Assembly: GCF_014202275.1 (NCBI RefSeq)
Contig: NZ_JACHGF010000001.1
Coordinates: forward strand, 744,001-808,000
Length of the DNA: 64,000 nucleotides
Origin: Rhabdobacter roseus
Lineage (GTDB): Bacteria > Bacteroidota > Bacteroidia > Cytophagales > Spirosomataceae
Direction of reading: 5' to 3'
The notes under the pieces are model-generated. The model made no database searches, was not told where the DNA came from, and worked only from the letters and a program-made list of their open reading frames with translations. The position numbers and the translations under genes were made by a program. Positions 2,687 to 10,801 of the stretch are shown here, piece by piece (position 1 is the stretch's first letter; every line of letters starts with the position of its first letter).

Positions 2687-4696
2687 TTGAGTGGAATAGC
2701 CGGGGTTATTTTTTTTGATCAGGAAGGGGCCGACGTCCAGCCCCTGCTTGAGGGCCTGGTGCGTCACATGCCGCATCGCGCTACGGAGGGTGTGCACCGC
2801 GGTGGAGATCGCTTTGGCTCTCTAGCCTACCTGCACCGGAGCGTCACCCGCCTGGACCACACAGTACGCCAGCCCCTTTGTACCCCCGCGGGCCAGCTGC
2901 TCGTCGCTGACGCCCGTCTTGACAACCGCCCCCAGCTGGCCGAAAAACTATCGCTTGATGCCGCTTCCTTCACCGAAGCGGAGCTACTAATGGCCGCCTG
3001 GCAGCGCTGGGGCGACGACATGCTGGATCACGTCATCGGAGATTTTGCCGTGGCCATCTGGGATGCGACGGATCAAACGCTTCACCTGCTGCGCGATCAT
3101 AGCGGTGCCAGGCCGCTTTTTTACTACCACAATACCACGTCGGGTTGGGTGGCTTTCGCCTCGGAGGTGCAGGCGCTGGTGGCCCTGCCGCAAGTACCTC
3201 GGGTGGCTAACGAAAAAGCCATTGCCCTGTACCTCAACTACGGCAATGACCTGAGAGCGCCCACCAAACAGACCTTTTTTGAAGACATTTACCGGGTAAG
3301 GCCCGCCCACGCGGTGGCTCTAACGGCTCGTCAAAGAACCGAGCGTTTTGTCTGGACGATCCAGGACCCCACGGCCGGGCTCACGACGCCGGAGGAGTAC
3401 GCCGAGGCTTTCGGTGCCCTGTTTCGGGAGGCGGTGCGTTGCCGGATGCAGAGCGACTACCCCATCGCTTCGGAGCTGAGTGGTGGCATGGACTCTTCGT
3501 CGGTAGCGGCTACGGCGCGTCACTTTCTGCGGCAGGAGGGGCGTCTACTCACAACCGTGCATTTTGATCTGGGCTTTGAGTCGTCCAACGAGCGCTCGTA
3601 TGCGCAGGCCGTAGTGGACCTGGGCGGGCTGGAGCACCACTGGACGAGCCCACTACCAGACTACTACCAAACTACCTCGGAGATTGCTGCCGCCTGCGGT
3701 GCCCCTGACTGCTTTCCCATGCCCTCCACGGCGCACCTCGGCTACGCGCAGGTACTACGCCAAAAAAAGGTACGGACGCTGCTGACGGGGCATGACGGTG
3801 ATTCGGTAGTAGGCTACGGCTTTGAATACCTGGACCGGCTTTTTGAAGATAAAGACTGGGAGGCGCTCAGGACGGCTTTGTATCAGCTGGCCCGGCACGT
3901 GGACTTTACCTACTACTACCCGGACTGGAATCAATGGAGCGACGACGAACGGGTCCGGCAGTGCATGGGTACCTATATGGCTCCTATGTTTATCTCTTCG
4001 TTAACCCAAAAAAAACCTAAAAGGGCGTTGACGATCATTTGGCACTCCTACCGCCGGTACCAACTGGCACCTACTTACTTCCTTAAAAAGTTCAGGGAAG
4101 CACTTGTAAAAAAACTCACTAAAACCTCCCGACACCTGCTGGCGGATTCCTTTGTGGAGAGAATACACTTAAAGGAGATAATTCAGAAAAGCAAAAACTC
4201 TAGTGCCGTTCCGTTGGGCTTATCAGGCAAAGCATTAGCCAATTGGACGTCTGTATATTCGCAGGATATGCTGGATGCCACCGAACAACAAAATAGAATG
4301 GGCCAGCATTATGGCTATGAAGTATGCCATCCTTTTTTAGATAAACGGCTCATTGAATTTTGCCTCTTTGTGCCGGATGTTATCAAGTATAACCAGGGGC
4401 TTTACCGAGGGTTATTGCGACGAGCCATGGAGGGCTTCCTCCCCGATTACGTGCGACTAAGGGGATCCAAAATGGATCCTAAGGAATTTATTCTCACTAC
4501 TTTATTGGGGCTAAACCCCTCCTGGAAAATTTTCTGCCAAAAAAATATTGTCCTGGAAAAGTATATTAGTAAGGATATTATGCAGAATTTTACGACTAAT
4601 AGCCAAACGGGAAATTTTAAAAATAAGTCTCGACAGCACGTCCTTCATCTGCGGGTTATTGGATTTTACGCTTGGTATAGAAATTTCTTTACTTAA
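2687..4696 (+). CDS. Lasso peptide isopeptide-forming cyclase (asparagine synthetase-like)
   Basis: The 669-residue protein has a class-II glutamine amidotransferase-like domain (about 1-200) and an asparagine-synthetase ATP-pyrophosphatase domain whose P-loop is SGGMDSS (residues 265-271). The start is a TTG giving Met-Ser-Gly-Ile-Ala-Gly. Glutamine-using AsnB enzymes have Cys2 here as nucleophile; this protein has Ser, as lasso cyclases of the McjC type lack a working glutaminase. Lasso cyclases adenylate an Asp/Glu side chain of the precursor and join it to the core N-terminus. The 43-codon gene 30 bp downstream has a lasso leader, which makes this role likely. From about residue 455 onward the DNA becomes AT-rich and lacks GTAC, unlike the 5' half. 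No B1/B2 leader-processing gene lies nearby. The alternative is an asparagine-synthetase-like enzyme of another pathway. Confidence 0.82.
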   Translation: MSGIAGVIFFDQEGADVQPLLEGLVRHMPHRATEGVHRGGDRFGSLAYLHRSVTRLDHTVRQPLCTPAGQLLVADARLDNRPQLAEKLSLDAASFTEAELLMAAWQRWGDDMLDHVIGDFAVAIWDATDQTLHLLRDHSGARPLFYYHNTTSGWVAFASEVQALVALPQVPRVANEKAIALYLNYGNDLRAPTKQTFFEDIYRVRPAHAVALTARQRTERFVWTIQDPTAGLTTPEEYAEAFGALFREAVRCRMQSDYPIASELSGGMDSSSVAATARHFLRQEGRLLTTVHFDLGFESSNERSYAQAVVDLGGLEHHWTSPLPDYYQTTSEIAAACGAPDCFPMPSTAHLGYAQVLRQKKVRTLLTGHDGDSVVGYGFEYLDRLFEDKDWEALRTALYQLARHVDFTYYYPDWNQWSDDERVRQCMGTYMAPMFISSLTQKKPKRALTIIWHSYRRYQLAPTYFLKKFREALVKKLTKTSRHLLADSFVERIHLKEIIQKSKNSSAVPLGLSGKALANWTSVYSQDMLDATEQQNRMGQHYGYEVCHPFLDKRLIEFCLFVPDVIKYNQGLYRGLLRRAMEGFLPDYVRLRGSKMDPKEFILTTLLGLNPSWKIFCQKNIVLEKYISKDIMQNFTTNSQTGNFKNKSRQHVLHLRVIGFYAWYRNFFT

Positions 4697-4726
4697 TATT
4701 ATCAAATACTAAACACAATCATTCAA

Positions 4727-4858
4727 ATGAAGAAGACGAAATTGTATCGCAAGCCGCAGTTGATGCGCCACGGGAAGTTAAGTTCAATTACCAGAAATAT
4801 CTCAACAGGTAGTGCTGCCGAAACATTTGGTTCAAACATGAAAGTTACCGGAGCATAA
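4727..4858 (+). CDS. Putative lasso peptide precursor (lasso leader-containing small protein)
   Basis: The 43-residue peptide starts MKKTKLYRKPQLMRHGKLSS. Residues 7-22 match the lasso leader consensus YxxPxLxxxGxxxxxT exactly (Tyr7, Pro10, Leu12, Gly16, Thr22). Thr22 fits the invariant penultimate leader Thr, which puts cleavage after Arg23 and starts the core at Asn24. The only acidic residue in the peptide is Glu32, the ninth core residue, exactly where the ring carboxylate is expected (7-9). The predicted product is a 20-residue lasso with a 9-residue ring (NISTGSAAE) and an 11-residue tail TFGSNMKVTGA. Asn as ring residue 1 is unusual; Gly, Ser, Ala or Cys are commoner. The gene lies 30 bp after the cyclase on the same strand and before a strong terminator. 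Maturation has not been shown. Confidence 0.82.
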   Translation: MKKTKLYRKPQLMRHGKLSSITRNISTGSAAETFGSNMKVTGA

Positions 4859-4886
4859 TCTTCTCTACGGAATCAGCAAGAAGATT

Positions 4887-4938
4887 GGTAAAAAGATAAG
4901 GGCCTGGGGAATATTCCCCAGGCCCTTATCTTTTTACC
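4887..4938. terminator. 52-bp perfect palindrome, bidirectional terminator
   Basis: Two perfectly complementary 24-base arms (4887-4910 and 4915-4938) flank ATAT. The stem is GC-rich in the centre and has A- and T-runs on the outside, as for an intrinsic terminator in both directions. It separates the lasso-type pair from the convergent 3' end of the curli operon, whose last gene ends at 4951. Confidence 0.85.
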
Positions 4939-4950
4939 ACGTAAAGTAAT

Positions 4951-6456
4951 TTACCGCCAGTAGGGCATTTCGGCATTTTGCACGAGGAGGGTACGGGTTT
5001 TGCCCGCCAGGTCCATCGAGTAAATGCCGCGCGTCGAAATCCCGTCGTTGTTTGTGTTGGTAAAAATGATGCGGGCTCCGTCGGGCGCAAAGCGGGGCTC
5101 CAGGTCATTGGTTCCGGCGGTTTTTTCGGCGGATAAATCCACCGAAGTACCCGCGGCAATATCCATCAGGAAGATCCGGGCGTCTAGCTGGCGGCCCTGA
5201 GGGTTCTGGAAATTACTCACGTCCAGGGAGTACACAATACGCCGACCATCTACGGAGAAGGCCGGATTGCTCATACGGCCAGCTTGGCCACCCACTAAGC
5301 GGGTCGTCTGACCCGTTGCAGGATTGATGAGATAAAGCTCATTGTCGTAAATGCTCTGCGTCGTCGCTCTTGCCACGATCCGGTTGCCCTGCTCGGTCCA
5401 GTCACAACCCGCAAAGAAGCGCCCGCTTGGGGCTTGTGCTACTAGGCGAAGTCCCGTTCCGTTGGGTCGAATGGCGTAGAGCTTATCGTAGCTGGGATAC
5501 AGGAGCTCGGTGCCATCCGGCGACCAGCAGAACGACAGATCCGTGACCGACAACCCGGCAATAGGAACCGTAGTAACCTGCCGTAGATTGTTTCCGTTAA
5601 GATCAGATACAAAAAGTTGGGCCTCGGTATTCCGGTTCGAAATGAATGCCAACTGGGTGCGGTTAGGGCTTACGATGGGGCGCCAGTTGCTGTATTCTTT
5701 GGTTACACTGAATTGCTCGGCTGCGTTGGAGGCCACAATCTGGAAGGTATTGTTGGTTTCTCTCCGAGCGAAGAAATAAGGGAAATCGGGCAGGTCGCGG
5801 GTACGGAAAGACCAGATTTGCCCGTATACAGTGTTATTGACCCGGTCGCGGGCGATCACCTGCCAGTAGTAAGTTGCTCCATAATCCAGGCCGTTTACCA
5901 CGAGTGAGTCGGCCAGGATATTTGTTGCAATCGGGACGGACGTCTTGTTGCCTTCCCGGAAAAGAATTACATCGTAGCGCAGCGTATCTTTTTCGGGATC
6001 GGTAGCGGTCCAGTCCAAAATCACCGAGGTGGTGACGTTCGTAGCGCCGTCGGCCGGGAAGGGGTTGCCAGGCAGGGTAGGAGCCCGATTTTGCAAATTA
6101 TCTTCGACCAGATAAACCACGATATTCGTTTGTTTGCGAGGCTCGATCTCAATATTGGTCAGGTCACTCCGGTAGCCGCTCTTGGTGGTCTGGACGCCGT
6201 ATTTATCCACGAGCAGGCTATCTACTTTAAAACGGCCCAGGGAGTCCGTTTCGGCACTCCGTCCGGAAGGGCTAATACGGATCAGGGCATTTGCAACGGG
6301 TTCTTTGGTGACTTGGGTAAGGATCTGACCGGCTACGGAGCCGTAGAGTTTAGGTTCAACGTAGGTGTCTTCCGTACAACCTGCCACCAGTACCACAACC
6401 AACAAACCCAGATAGAAGCGGGAAAACGTTCTGGTTGAAAAGGGAATTAAATTCAC
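4951..6456 (-). CDS. Lipoprotein with carboxypeptidase-regulatory, FnIII-like and PD40/TolB-like propeller domains
   Basis: GTG start giving MNLIPFSTRTFSRFYLGLLV with lipobox VAGC, so a lipoprotein of about 500 residues. The domain order is a carboxypeptidase-regulatory-like beta-sandwich (about 35-110, with GQILTQVTKEPVANALIRIS), a fibronectin-III-like region (about 125-220, NPFPADGATNV and DYGATYYWQV), and a WD40-like/PD40 propeller (about 225-500) with repeats such as FCWSPDGTELLY, FSVDGRRIVYSLD and FAPDGARIIFTNT. It is the last gene of the minus-strand curli operon, 31 bp after csgG, which suggests a role in assembling or anchoring the amyloid matrix, but that is inference. Propellers of this kind bind proteins or glycans at the cell envelope. 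Confidence 0.75.
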   Translation of the reverse strand: MNLIPFSTRTFSRFYLGLLVVVLVAGCTEDTYVEPKLYGSVAGQILTQVTKEPVANALIRISPSGRSAETDSLGRFKVDSLLVDKYGVQTTKSGYRSDLTNIEIEPRKQTNIVVYLVEDNLQNRAPTLPGNPFPADGATNVTTSVILDWTATDPEKDTLRYDVILFREGNKTSVPIATNILADSLVVNGLDYGATYYWQVIARDRVNNTVYGQIWSFRTRDLPDFPYFFARRETNNTFQIVASNAAEQFSVTKEYSNWRPIVSPNRTQLAFISNRNTEAQLFVSDLNGNNLRQVTTVPIAGLSVTDLSFCWSPDGTELLYPSYDKLYAIRPNGTGLRLVAQAPSGRFFAGCDWTEQGNRIVARATTQSIYDNELYLINPATGQTTRLVGGQAGRMSNPAFSVDGRRIVYSLDVSNFQNPQGRQLDARIFLMDIAAGTSVDLSAEKTAGTNDLEPRFAPDGARIIFTNTNNDGISTRGIYSMDLAGKTRTLLVQNAEMPYWR

Positions 6457-6487
6457 GGTAAATATTTTTGGATAGTTAAAAGCAGAA

Positions 6488-7870
6488 TTATCTTGTAAAA
6501 CGGGGATTGGATTTACCCAGATGGAAGGTCAGCCCTACCGATGCGCGCCAGAATGAGTCATTGAAGCCACCCCGTACTACCTCGTCCAGGTCGTCGTTCA
6601 GCATGTAATTGTACTGCCCAATGAGGTGAAGACCCACGCGGTTGGTTAGGGAATACTCGAGCCCCGCGGCGGCGTTTACGTAGGGTAGTTTTTGGCCGCT
6701 AAATTGCATGGGAGTATCCGAGCGAGCGACAATGCCAGCGCCTGCTTGCAAAAAAGGGCTGGCTTTCTGGTAAGGTAGCGTTCGGAATCGGAGGTCAAAT
6801 TCGCCGTAATTGATGGGCTGCTGGTACCCTCCGGAACGGATCGCCAAAGTACCTACCCCGGCGTTCAGCATAGCGATCCAGGCCGGACGAAGGGCGTAGC
6901 CTACTGCCAAGCCGTAGCCAGCCTTGTTGATGGAAGGGCCATAGTCTCCTTCATAGCGGACAAGCGATCCGTAGGGTTGTAAGGTAAATGAAGGTCGTGA
7001 TATGCTATTCCGGCCGCCAAACACGTCGGTTTCGCGGGCTTCATTCAGTTCGGTTTCGTAGGCGGCAAGCAGCGCCTGGGTTTCTCTTTGGTACTTGGTG
7101 TCGGCATCCCAGAGTCCATCTCGTATCCCTTCAATAATCAAGGATTGGACCGCCTTTTCAATGGCTTCGGTCACGGCTAACTGGGCGGGTTCGTTGGTAG
7201 TATAGCCAGTTTCAGCTTCCAGCAGGCGCTTAAATTTTACAAACCGAAACAGTCCTACGTCCACGGCTTGGGAAAGCACGGTTTTGGAAGTATAGACCGT
7301 CTTCAGAATTTTACCGGATTTAGTAGCCACGGCGCGTAAATATACCGTTACGCGGTCCTGCCGGTACTGGGTAGAACCGCCCGCACCGAAGTACCTTAGG
7401 CCCGCTCCGCCGGTAATGACGTTCGCATCGTACGAAACGACCCCGCCTTCCAGGATTACCCCGGCAAAGAGCAGCGGAGGGAGATTGTCGTTTTCGTTTT
7501 TGTATTGAGCCATGCTGGAGCGAATGATTTTCCGCTCGTTTAGGAGGTTACTCACGTTTTCCCGCTCGATCGCCATAAACCAGCCACTCTCTTCCAGGGC
7601 TTTAAGAAGAATATTGGTAGTTCCCTGCGTGATGGCGGTAGACCAGTTAGCTCCCGTTTCTGAAGGTTTGTACTGGCCCGTTTGGTCACGGAACTTGTAG
7701 ACGGCCGCTGCGAGCTTTTCCTTAGGGAGCGGTAATTTCCGCAGCTCGCTAGTCAGGTTGGTTTCTTCACCCAACCGTGCTTTTTGCCAGCGGGTAGGCT
7801 GGTGCATGGTGGAGTTACAACTGGCTAGAATGACTAAAAGAATTATACTAGAGTAGAGGGTTCTTAACAT
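6488..7870 (-). CDS. csgG: CsgG-type curli secretion pore lipoprotein with C-terminal beta-barrel extension
   Basis: The ATG at 7870 gives MLRTLYSSIILLVILASC, a lipoprotein signal; an in-frame start at 7915 would place 15 extra residues before it. Residues about 45-265 match CsgG closely: AAAVYKFRDQTGQYKP, NLLNERKIIRSS, TGGAGLRYFGAGGSTQYRQD, VFTSKTVLS-like and ETGYTTNEPAQLAV segments all correspond to E. coli CsgG. CsgG forms the nonameric outer-membrane channel for curlin export. The E. coli protein is about 277 residues, whereas this one is 460: residues about 295-460 add an alternating glycine/aromatic outer-membrane beta-barrel-like domain ending SVGLTFHLGK. It follows csgF by 60 bp and precedes the propeller lipoprotein. 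Confidence 0.92.
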   Translation of the reverse strand: MLRTLYSSIILLVILASCNSTMHQPTRWQKARLGEETNLTSELRKLPLPKEKLAAAVYKFRDQTGQYKPSETGANWSTAITQGTTNILLKALEESGWFMAIERENVSNLLNERKIIRSSMAQYKNENDNLPPLLFAGVILEGGVVSYDANVITGGAGLRYFGAGGSTQYRQDRVTVYLRAVATKSGKILKTVYTSKTVLSQAVDVGLFRFVKFKRLLEAETGYTTNEPAQLAVTEAIEKAVQSLIIEGIRDGLWDADTKYQRETQALLAAYETELNEARETDVFGGRNSISRPSFTLQPYGSLVRYEGDYGPSINKAGYGLAVGYALRPAWIAMLNAGVGTLAIRSGGYQQPINYGEFDLRFRTLPYQKASPFLQAGAGIVARSDTPMQFSGQKLPYVNAAAGLEYSLTNRVGLHLIGQYNYMLNDDLDEVVRGGFNDSFWRASVGLTFHLGKSNPRFTR

Positions 7871-7929
7871 ACTGGATTTTCGTACAAATGCTGTTGTGGA
7901 ATGCCATAAATACAAGCCGGATAAGGGGC

Positions 7930-8358
7930 TCAGTAGAAGGGTACAGTAATGGTCGTTTCTCCTCCTTGTCCATCGGCAATCTGAATGATAAAACCTTCCA
8001 GTCCCCTGGAAATATTAACGAAGAAATCGCCAAACTGATAGGAGCCTTCTTTCAGGCCGTCCTCACCAAATTGGTCATCCACCAGTTGCCGGGATAAGCG
8101 GCTCAAAAGCTGACGATTTAAGCTTTCCGTAAAGCTTCCCAAAGCAGTCTGGCTGGTTAAGGCAGAGCGAGTAGCACTCAAAGCTTCCGGATCTTTGGTT
8201 TTGTCTTGTACCTGAGCCGAGCTCAGCATCCATTGGTAATTAAACGTATTACCTCCAAAGGCCGGGTTTTTTGCCTGGTAGATCAGGGCCTGTGCCTGCC
8301 CTGAAAAGCTACAAAGACACATCCCGACCACCCCACTAACTAAAAATAGATATTTCAT
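7930..8358 (-). CDS. csgF: CsgF-type curli assembly factor
   Basis: The 142-residue protein has a signal peptide (cleavage after GQAQA). It continues LIYQAKNPAFGGNTFNYQWM and LSSAQVQD, which matches the N-terminal pore-binding segment of CsgF (ELVYQFVNPxFGGNPxN in the Escherichia protein). CsgF plugs the CsgG channel and holds the nucleating curlin at the surface. The C-terminal half has the DFFVNISRGLEGFIIQIADG beta-structure expected of the family. It sits upstream of csgG in the usual functional pairing. A strong stem-loop between this gene and the upstream curlin gene may lower its expression relative to the fibre subunit. Confidence 0.92.
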   Translation of the reverse strand: MKYLFLVSGVVGMCLCSFSGQAQALIYQAKNPAFGGNTFNYQWMLSSAQVQDKTKDPEALSATRSALTSQTALGSFTESLNRQLLSRLSRQLVDDQFGEDGLKEGSYQFGDFFVNISRGLEGFIIQIADGQGGETTITVPFY

Positions 8359-8391
8359 GCATACAGGATTGGTTACTAGGTTAATAAGTGC

Positions 8392-8430
8392 ATCAAAGCC
8401 AAGAGGAGCAGCGCTCCTCTTGGCTTTGAT
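8392..8430 (-). terminator. Stem-loop terminator or attenuator between curlin gene and csgF
   Basis: Arms of 18 bases (8392-8409 and 8413-8430) are perfectly complementary around a 3-base loop. It lies just after the stop of the 249-residue curlin gene and before the csgF start. There is no long T-run, so it may act as a partial terminator or as a 3' stabiliser of the curlin mRNA. Confidence 0.65.
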
Positions 8431-8444
8431 GACAAAACAAAAGA

Positions 8445-9194
8445 TTAATGGTTATTTTGAATCACTTGGATAAAATTATTCATGCCGTTTTGGGTAGTAG
8501 CGCTGGTATGGTTATTGCCATATTGCTTTAATTCTCCCCGATTCTCCTTTCCGGTTTGGATGGCCACGTAAGCCAGCGTATTTCCAGCCTGGTACGACGT
8601 CAGGTAATTTGCCTCGCCCGTTTGGGTCATGGTTACCGTTTTATCATTTCCGAGCTCCTGGCCTACCAAGGCCATATTACGATTTCCCGTCTGGGTTATC
8701 GTTGCTTTATTTCGTTGTCCATCTGCATTGGAAGCTTCTACTTTGTTCTGATTCCCTTCCTGCTTAACCACCGCCATTCCATCGATGCCAAACGACTCGG
8801 CAAAGGCGTAGTTGTTATCTCCGATCTGCGTTATTTTAATAGAGGTACCTACGTTTTGCCCTAAGGAGGCAGGAAGTACATCCATGGCGGTAATGGCTAT
8901 ATTATTATCGCCGGTCTGGTACATTTCTACTTTCATTTTCTGGGCATCGAAAGAAGGGGGATTCTGAACGCCCATGTAGGTACTTGCTTTATTATTGTCT
9001 CCTATTTGTTTAATGATCACGTCATTGTTGGAGCCCTGGAGTTTTAAAAGCACATGGTTAGAAAGCCCGTCCTGATCCAGATCATAAACATTAAAGTCTC
9101 CTTGCACCTGGATGGTTGAGGTATTATCCTGGCCAAAAACACAGGTCGAGAAGGAGGCCAGCAGCAAGCATATACAGGTAGCTGATTTTTTCAT
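8445..9194 (-). CDS. Curlin-repeat amyloid subunit (CsgA/CsgB-like), long form
   Basis: The 249-residue secreted protein has a signal peptide ending CVFG. About eleven copies of the curlin signature QxGxxN follow: IKQIGDNNK, MYQTGDNNI, ITQIGDNNY, VKQEGNQNK, ITQTGNRNM, MTQTGEANY, AIQTGKENR, LKQYGNNHT, TTQNGMNNF and others. Each unit forms one strand-loop-strand rung of the curli beta-solenoid. Repeat number and length exceed the five repeats of E. coli CsgA, which points to the major fibre subunit. It lies between csgE and csgF in the same orientation. Which of the three curlins here is the nucleator cannot be decided from sequence. Confidence 0.88.
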   Translation of the reverse strand: MKKSATCICLLLASFSTCVFGQDNTSTIQVQGDFNVYDLDQDGLSNHVLLKLQGSNNDVIIKQIGDNNKASTYMGVQNPPSFDAQKMKVEMYQTGDNNIAITAMDVLPASLGQNVGTSIKITQIGDNNYAFAESFGIDGMAVVKQEGNQNKVEASNADGQRNKATITQTGNRNMALVGQELGNDKTVTMTQTGEANYLTSYQAGNTLAYVAIQTGKENRGELKQYGNNHTSATTQNGMNNFIQVIQNNH

Positions 9195-9305
9195 AGAAGC
9201 GGCACGTTGAGCGAAGGCGTTTCGGGTACTTATTTAGTAAACTTTAGTAGACCTATTTATTTTGTCGTAGCTGATAGCAAAATATCCCTCCCTAAAAAGG
9301 AAAAA

Positions 9306-9818
9306 TTAGTAAATACCCGTCCCCATCTGATCCTCGGTTCCAAGCTGGCTTTGGATCAGTTGGTAGTTGACCAGGTACTGTAGTACGGTTTGGGCGGCAT
9401 TCTCCGCTTGGGCTTCCAGAATTTCCAGGCGAGGCTGTACAAACTGCTGCCAAACAATTTGGTCCCCTACCGAGATTTCAATGATATTCGAAAGCCCAAT
9501 CGAAGGCAATTCTTCGATCTTGACCGTCAGCTCATCGATGTTCTGCTCGAAGGTAGCATTCATTTGGCCCATCGACGTTGAGTCAAGCTGGGCGCTGGTC
9601 CATTGGCGGTAAAATTCTTCATAAAAGTCGCGGCCAACTTTAGTACGGCTATTGTCCAGGATCAGCGTAGTACCGCTTTCACTCTCAATCAAAGCCTCGT
9701 CAAGGGGCCTTACGGAATATTCTTCCAGGGCTTCTTCTTCCAAAGGGGTTTCCTGAGCCAGGCAGTTCACTCCTCCTAAGGAAATGAGCAGAAATAGAAG
9801 GCGAAGTACATACCGCAT
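9306..9818 (-). CDS. csgE: CsgE-type curli periplasmic adaptor
   Basis: The 170-residue protein has a signal peptide (MRYVLRLLFLLISLGGVNCL). The CsgE domain (about 45-155) shows LILDNSRTKVGRDFYEEFYR, LTVKIEELPSIGLSNIIEIS and a QFVQPRLEILEAQAENAA segment, equivalent to the LLLDxTxSRxGxDFY and following conserved parts of Escherichia CsgE. CsgE caps the CsgG pore from the periplasm and delivers unfolded curlins. An acidic linker of about 20 residues after the signal is unlike the Escherichia protein. It lies between two curlin genes. Confidence 0.9.
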   Translation of the reverse strand: MRYVLRLLFLLISLGGVNCLAQETPLEEEALEEYSVRPLDEALIESESGTTLILDNSRTKVGRDFYEEFYRQWTSAQLDSTSMGQMNATFEQNIDELTVKIEELPSIGLSNIIEISVGDQIVWQQFVQPRLEILEAQAENAAQTVLQYLVNYQLIQSQLGTEDQMGTGIY

Positions 9819-10359: not shown

Positions 10360-10414
10360 AACTATATCTTAATATTTAAAATAACAATTTAGCCCCGAAA
10401 GTTACAAAAAGTTC

Positions 10415-10801
10415 TTAATTACTACCTTGCTTAATCACCACTTTATTACCAGAACCCTGTTGGGACACTTGGGCGGTGTTGCCCTGCCCCGATTGGTGTA
10501 TCTGAACCTGATGGCGGGCCTTCTGCCCGGGCAGGGTATCCTGCACCATAATCACCCGGTTGGTGCCATCCTGGATTATGGTAGTAACCAGCGTGGTAGA
10601 GTCCGAGGAGCGCTCGCTCTGTTGGATCTGGATGTTGTTTCCGGCTCCTTCCTGCGATACCTGCACGTGGTGCGGAGCCGTTACGATCACTTCTTGTTTG
10701 GACTCCATCGGTTTTGCCTTTTTGGATTTAGAAGTTTGAGCCTGAGCATTTATCGTCATGCCCAGTAAGCCCAACACAACCATTGCTATTTTTCTTTCCA
10801 T
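10415..10801 (-). CDS. Short curlin-repeat protein, first gene of curli operon
   Basis: The 128-residue secreted protein has a signal peptide, a lysine-rich spacer (SKSKKAKPMESKQE) and about four curlin units: VSQEGAGNNI, IIQDGTNRV, IHQSGQGNTA and VSQQGSGNKV. The final units are followed by the C-terminus VIKQGSN. Few repeats and a basic spacer suggest an accessory or capping subunit. It heads the operon. A run of ten C (ten G on the coding strand) lies about 80 bp upstream of its ATG. Confidence 0.78.
   Translation of the reverse strand: MERKIAMVVLGLLGMTINAQAQTSKSKKAKPMESKQEVIVTAPHHVQVSQEGAGNNIQIQQSERSSDSTTLVTTIIQDGTNRVIMVQDTLPGQKARHQVQIHQSGQGNTAQVSQQGSGNKVVIKQGSN

Follow-up and report, generated by a model that had tools for sequence, protein, structure and literature searches.

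Among the systems closest to the locus analysed here is the paeninodin cluster of Bacillota, padeC-A-B1-B2-D (PMC5067487), in which a cyclase gene (C) precedes the precursor gene (A), B1 and B2 are separate genes and the leader is of the YxxP or WxxP type. Our locus is alike in each of these respects, and its C-A order is thus nothing out of the ordinary; but in paeninodin B1, B2 and an exporter follow directly, whereas here they are absent locally and the B1-B2 pair lies 319 kb away. Within the Spirosomataceae, the C-A-B1-B2 loci found in Runella (L050, from R. rosea) and in relatives (L053 and L055) share the adjacent C and A genes, the Y/P/G/T leader and membership of the same 17-row cyclase clade, but they carry B1-B2 within a few kb and have rings of 8 residues under the Thr(-2) rule, against 9 here. 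A leader protease encoded apart from the modifying enzyme and precursor has a parallel in unclustered lanthipeptide proteases (PMC8960859), although these belong to another peptide class and protease family, and a lasso B2 also needs B1. For a stand-alone lasso B1, FusB1, promiscuous leader binding has been shown (PMC13381572).

The window, by which we mean the whole 64-kb stretch of DNA analysed, contains a cyclase gene followed on the same strand, after 30 bp, by a precursor reading frame:

2687..4696, plus strand: lasso cyclase (C) of 669 aa, starting at TTG; its N-terminus, MSGIAG, is that of relatives, and the ATP-pyrophosphatase loop reads SGGMDSS
4727..4858, plus strand: lasso precursor (A), 43 aa, MKKTKLYRKPQLMRHGKLSSITR/NISTGSAAETFGSNMKVTGA, with leader motif and profile match
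4796..4855, plus strand: predicted core N1-A20, NISTGSAAETFGSNMKVTGA, with a predicted N1-E9 ring and 11-residue tail, the cut being placed from the sequence by the Thr(-2) rule
4886..4939, no strand: perfect 27-bp inverted repeat without spacer, bordered by runs of T/A and lying between the precursor gene and the propeller gene, which converge here

The first gene encodes an asparagine-synthetase-like cyclase of the lasso type. The lasso cyclase model NF033535 matches it over its full length (residues 1-661, E = 4.8e-115, 386 bits), a score below the curated cut-off of 525 bits; that cut-off is uninformative here because no cyclase among 24 Spirosomataceae genomes reaches it, including cyclases of complete clusters beside B1 and B2. 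A domain search found Asn_synthase and GATase domains, and a 49-row alignment shows intact SGG-DSS (ATP-loop), TGHDGD and HPF-D motifs. Relatives aligned with the cyclase have their ATG starts where the window gene has TTG, which supports the TTG start. AsnB carries a Cys nucleophile at the N-terminus of its glutaminase domain, and this residue is not present in the window cyclase, which starts M-S-G-I-A.

The precursor had been proposed from its fit to the lasso leader consensus, and this fit holds at all five positions. Its motif, Y..P.L...G.....T (Y7, P10, L12, G16 and T22), occupies the five invariant columns of an alignment with the precursors of five relatives, and over 20 precursors the same columns are invariant except for Leu12. 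A profile built from those 20 rows recovers the window precursor at 6.6e-10. It falls below the cut-offs of the curated leader models NF033521 and NF033528, as do the other precursors of the genome, and on that account these models were left out of the decision. A complete ATG...motif...stop reading frame is expected 0.017 times per 64 kb in first-order Markov random sequence of the window's composition, which makes a chance origin unlikely; this is the only such frame in the window. Full conservation of the leader alongside a diverged core is what one expects of a precursor that still works.

Thr is the penultimate residue of a lasso leader, and T22 stands at -2 to the predicted cut. The core so defined has a single acidic residue, Glu at position 9, within the range (Asp/Glu at 7-9) appropriate for ring closure and leaving 11 residues as tail, just as had been predicted. 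We predict a product with a lasso fold, an isopeptide ring and a threaded tail, and the 20-residue core minus one water would have a monoisotopic [M+H]+ of 1924.907. Downstream, the 27-bp inverted repeat is probably a two-way terminator; a consensus terminator scan did not list it because that scan demands a loop of 3-8 and the repeat has none.

No B1 or B2 gene lies in the 64-kb window, and to that extent the description of a locus without B genes stands. It does not extend to the genome (6.9 Mb, 27 contigs, 99.98% complete), where a whole-genome search gave convincing matches to B1 and B2 at a single position (G000:C1:1,067,515-1,068,255), 319 kb from the window locus:

L007:4516-4800 and 4807-5256: B1 and B2, available in the same genome
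L118:1447-1602; L119:1321-1476 and 3397-3582; L120:11024-11158: solitary precursors without a cyclase

B2 scores 63 bits, above its cut-off of 33, and keeps the Cys/His/Asp positions common to 29 homologues; B1 scores 71 bits, below its cut-off of 80. A second precursor and a second cyclase adjoin this pair, and four solitary precursors with cores K[TS]GS[QL]SD.FSPY.. are found on contigs C15 (two), C18 and C19, giving a genome total of six precursors, two cyclases and one lasso-type B1-B2 pair. On C15 and C18 the solitary precursors are flanked by secreted proteins of leucine-rich-repeat-like character, repeat proteins of one kind; one of them, on C15, combines a secretion tail with receptor-L and leucine-rich-repeat domains. 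A further precursor match, at G000:C18:3039-3152, is interrupted by two stops and is apparently a decayed copy. For LTLK.GS..D cores (L007:11632-11775 and many precursors of the family) the Thr(-2) rule predicts a Lys start and a 7-residue ring at Asp7, which is small for a lasso peptide. Of 46 cyclase loci, 30 have a gingipain-type C25 peptidase close to the lasso cyclase, L007:14455-17396 among them, and 29 a small probable lipoprotein; neither occurs at the window locus.

We conclude that this is a genuine lasso locus using known chemistry, its B functions most likely being supplied in trans, and we put the probability of a C-A locus served by B1 and B2 in this way at roughly 0.7. The reading is favoured because a second lasso locus, at a distance of 319 kb, holds one intact B1-B2 pair, and of the two options originally offered, supply from elsewhere in the genome or a different mode of leader removal, the first has gained by this and the second has been made unnecessary. 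In the mechanism that we infer, from leader binding through to export and function, the cyclase and 43-aa precursor would be made together from 2687-4858; B1, encoded 319 kb away, would bind the window leader through Y7, P10 and L12, and B2 would cut after Arg23, two residues counted from Thr. The cyclase would then activate Glu9 with ATP and join it to the new N-terminal Asn1, producing a 9-residue ring through which the 11-residue tail would be threaded. The second cyclase and the remaining five precursors would rely on this same B pair. Against B1 and B2 acting in trans are the sequence around the cut, which is ITR in the window precursor and of the LTLK type beside the B pair, the long branch of the window cyclase, and the locus itself, where no adjoining exporter, an optional component of lasso systems, was noticed.

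The separation of cyclase and B genes was implied to be rare, and the family says otherwise. In 222 Spirosomataceae genomes we counted 110 listed cyclases (those with a match reaching residue 594 or beyond), and 80 of them have no B2 within 15 kb. The nearest B2 is within 15 kb for 27, farther away on the same contig for 33 and on another contig for 47, a class that includes fragmented assemblies; for three none was found. Assembly breaks cannot explain the 33, because there B2 is on the same contig, in many cases of genus g8 about 600 kb away. All 50 listed cyclases of genus g8 are unlinked to B2, and the B1-B2 loci fetched from that genus have no cyclase nearby; across eight B1-B2 loci fetched from genomes other than that of the window, there is no cyclase or credible precursor within about 7 kb. 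Among genomes at least 90% complete, B2 is present in 88 of 88 with a lasso-type cyclase, compared with 22 of the 93 others (Fisher p = 5e-31, on a genome split made by hand and with counts that ignore shared descent). Cyclase and B2 are thus unlinked and yet retained together, as expected of genes that cooperate from separate places, and this implies B proteins acting in trans. The split state of the window is the usual one in the Spirosomataceae, and clustering with B1-B2 is not obligatory. The scale of this split, and the curli-linked rows described below, were new to us, and a literature search, with most subscription papers outside its reach, found no report of either. A second, distant locus type, B2-cyclase-B1, occurs in Runella genomes (L093:7871-11196, L095:4186-7515 and L096:6849-10210), and the leader pattern finds no precursor at these three loci.

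This co-retention also bears on the possibility that maturation dispenses with B proteins, an unrelated protease such as a C39 peptidase-transporter removing the leader, or the cyclase using a core freed in some other manner. There are precedents, for PMC10885120 cites pseudomycoidin, which is made with neither a leader nor a leader peptidase, and cochonodin, whose system includes a peptidase-ABC transporter; and in a relative (L158) an 802-aa C39-peptidase transporter-like protein, assigned by eye, is encoded near a solitary lasso precursor. We nevertheless think such a route unlikely in our genome, which has an intact B1-B2 pair, and the presence of B2 in all 88 near-complete genomes with a lasso-type cyclase argues against it, as does the window leader, where every B1-contact position is kept and a B-free route would not need them.

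The cyclase tree places the window gene in a 17-row clade (support 96/99) that also holds the C-A loci L048, L050, L052, L053, L055 and L063, the loci with A before C (L049, L051, L057, L060 and L062) and the curli-linked cyclases; contig ends truncate two further loci, L058 and L061. Conservation of the C-A order among relatives had been proposed as a check, and the order does recur in those six other loci of the family, which, with the full-length model match and intact motifs, bears out the identification of a lasso-type cyclase beside its precursor. In L050, L053 and L055 the C-A unit has B1-B2 next to it, and in L048 and L052 only B1 was seen. Neither was seen in L063, and the B pair of that genome (G164) lies at a distance of 1.2 Mb, so the state of the window is not unique. 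The window cyclase itself is a long branch with a best identity of 34%, and a search for close relatives gave two distant matches only. Its grouping with the curli-linked cyclases is neither rejected nor supported (AU p = 0.083), and for a single clade with the C-A loci the value is p = 0.038.

That long branch could suggest a decaying or silent remnant, the C-A piece of a formerly complete cluster that now yields no product, and the three relatives with B1-B2 beside C-A make loss by fragmentation possible. Both frames are intact, however, the catalytic motifs are conserved and the precursor combines a conserved leader with a diverged core, all of which makes a remnant quite improbable. A functional locus supplied with B1 and B2 in trans accordingly remains our preferred reading as we turn to its surroundings.

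The C-A unit abuts a curli (csg) operon at 4951-9818, which runs towards it, and co-transcription is not implied in the window since the two are convergent:

4951..6456, minus strand: beta-propeller lipoprotein with PD40 repeats, last gene of the curli operon, with orthologues in the same place in G049, G152 and G173
6488..7915, minus strand: CsgG, curli export pore (PF03783, 1.6e-66)
7930..8358, minus strand: CsgF (PF10614, 7.6e-41)
8445..9194, minus strand: curlin-repeat protein (PF07012, 5e-24)
9306..9818, minus strand: CsgE (PF10627, 8.3e-14)

In G049, G152 and G173, representing three other genera, a lasso cyclase likewise stands at the end of the csg operon with B1-B2 elsewhere in the genome; unlike the convergent arrangement of the window, A opens and C closes a single same-strand row of about 12-14 kb, in which the precursor is followed by large curlin-repeat genes, the csg genes, the propeller lipoprotein gene and lastly the cyclase:

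L151:5648-19592, L152:6530-18818 and L153:652-14239, each on one strand: curli rows, precursor to cyclase
L155:8372-8500 and 10410-10529; L156:507-689; L158:6636-6773; L154:8212-8388: scattered precursors of G049

The three curli-row precursors, which were missed by the regular expression and recovered by profile search, have a common core, A[GA]GS.SADVPGGAT.GP, in which Asp8 is positioned to close a ring of 8 residues. The five scattered precursors of G049 have an identical end, LTLKIGSTSDVGGMQPMP, and each adjoins a large secreted-type protein. Among genomes with both, four of 39 cyclase-csg pairs, a set compiled by hand, are no more than 10 kb apart, where 0.11 would be expected (P = 5e-6); when the three similar curli cases are counted once there are two, against the same expectation (P = 0.005).

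It is very improbable that the cyclase acts on a curli component rather than on the 43-aa peptide, as its contact with the curli operon, and the position of a cyclase as last operon gene in G049, G152 and G173, might suggest, for those three operons also open with a lasso-type precursor, so that each cyclase has a lasso substrate in its gene set, and the window precursor is just 30 bp from its cyclase. With the peptide as substrate and B1-B2 in trans, a tentative and rather doubtful extension is that the curli operon of several genera in this family includes a lasso precursor and cyclase as members, and that the product may build, anchor or control curli fibres, the B1-B2 pair shared across the genome removing the leader.

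These observations affect how lasso loci are sought, since to mining based on clusters, which looks for precursor, cyclase and B genes together, most cyclases of this family would look incomplete, and solitary precursors would be missed. The genome, with its one B pair and six scattered precursors, offers a ready-made test of the promiscuity of B1 and B2, and also of the way in which a single bacterium handles several lasso products simultaneously. Functions outside antibiosis are known for few lasso peptides, and the curli link, a lead to function and not a shown function, gives a concrete one of this kind.
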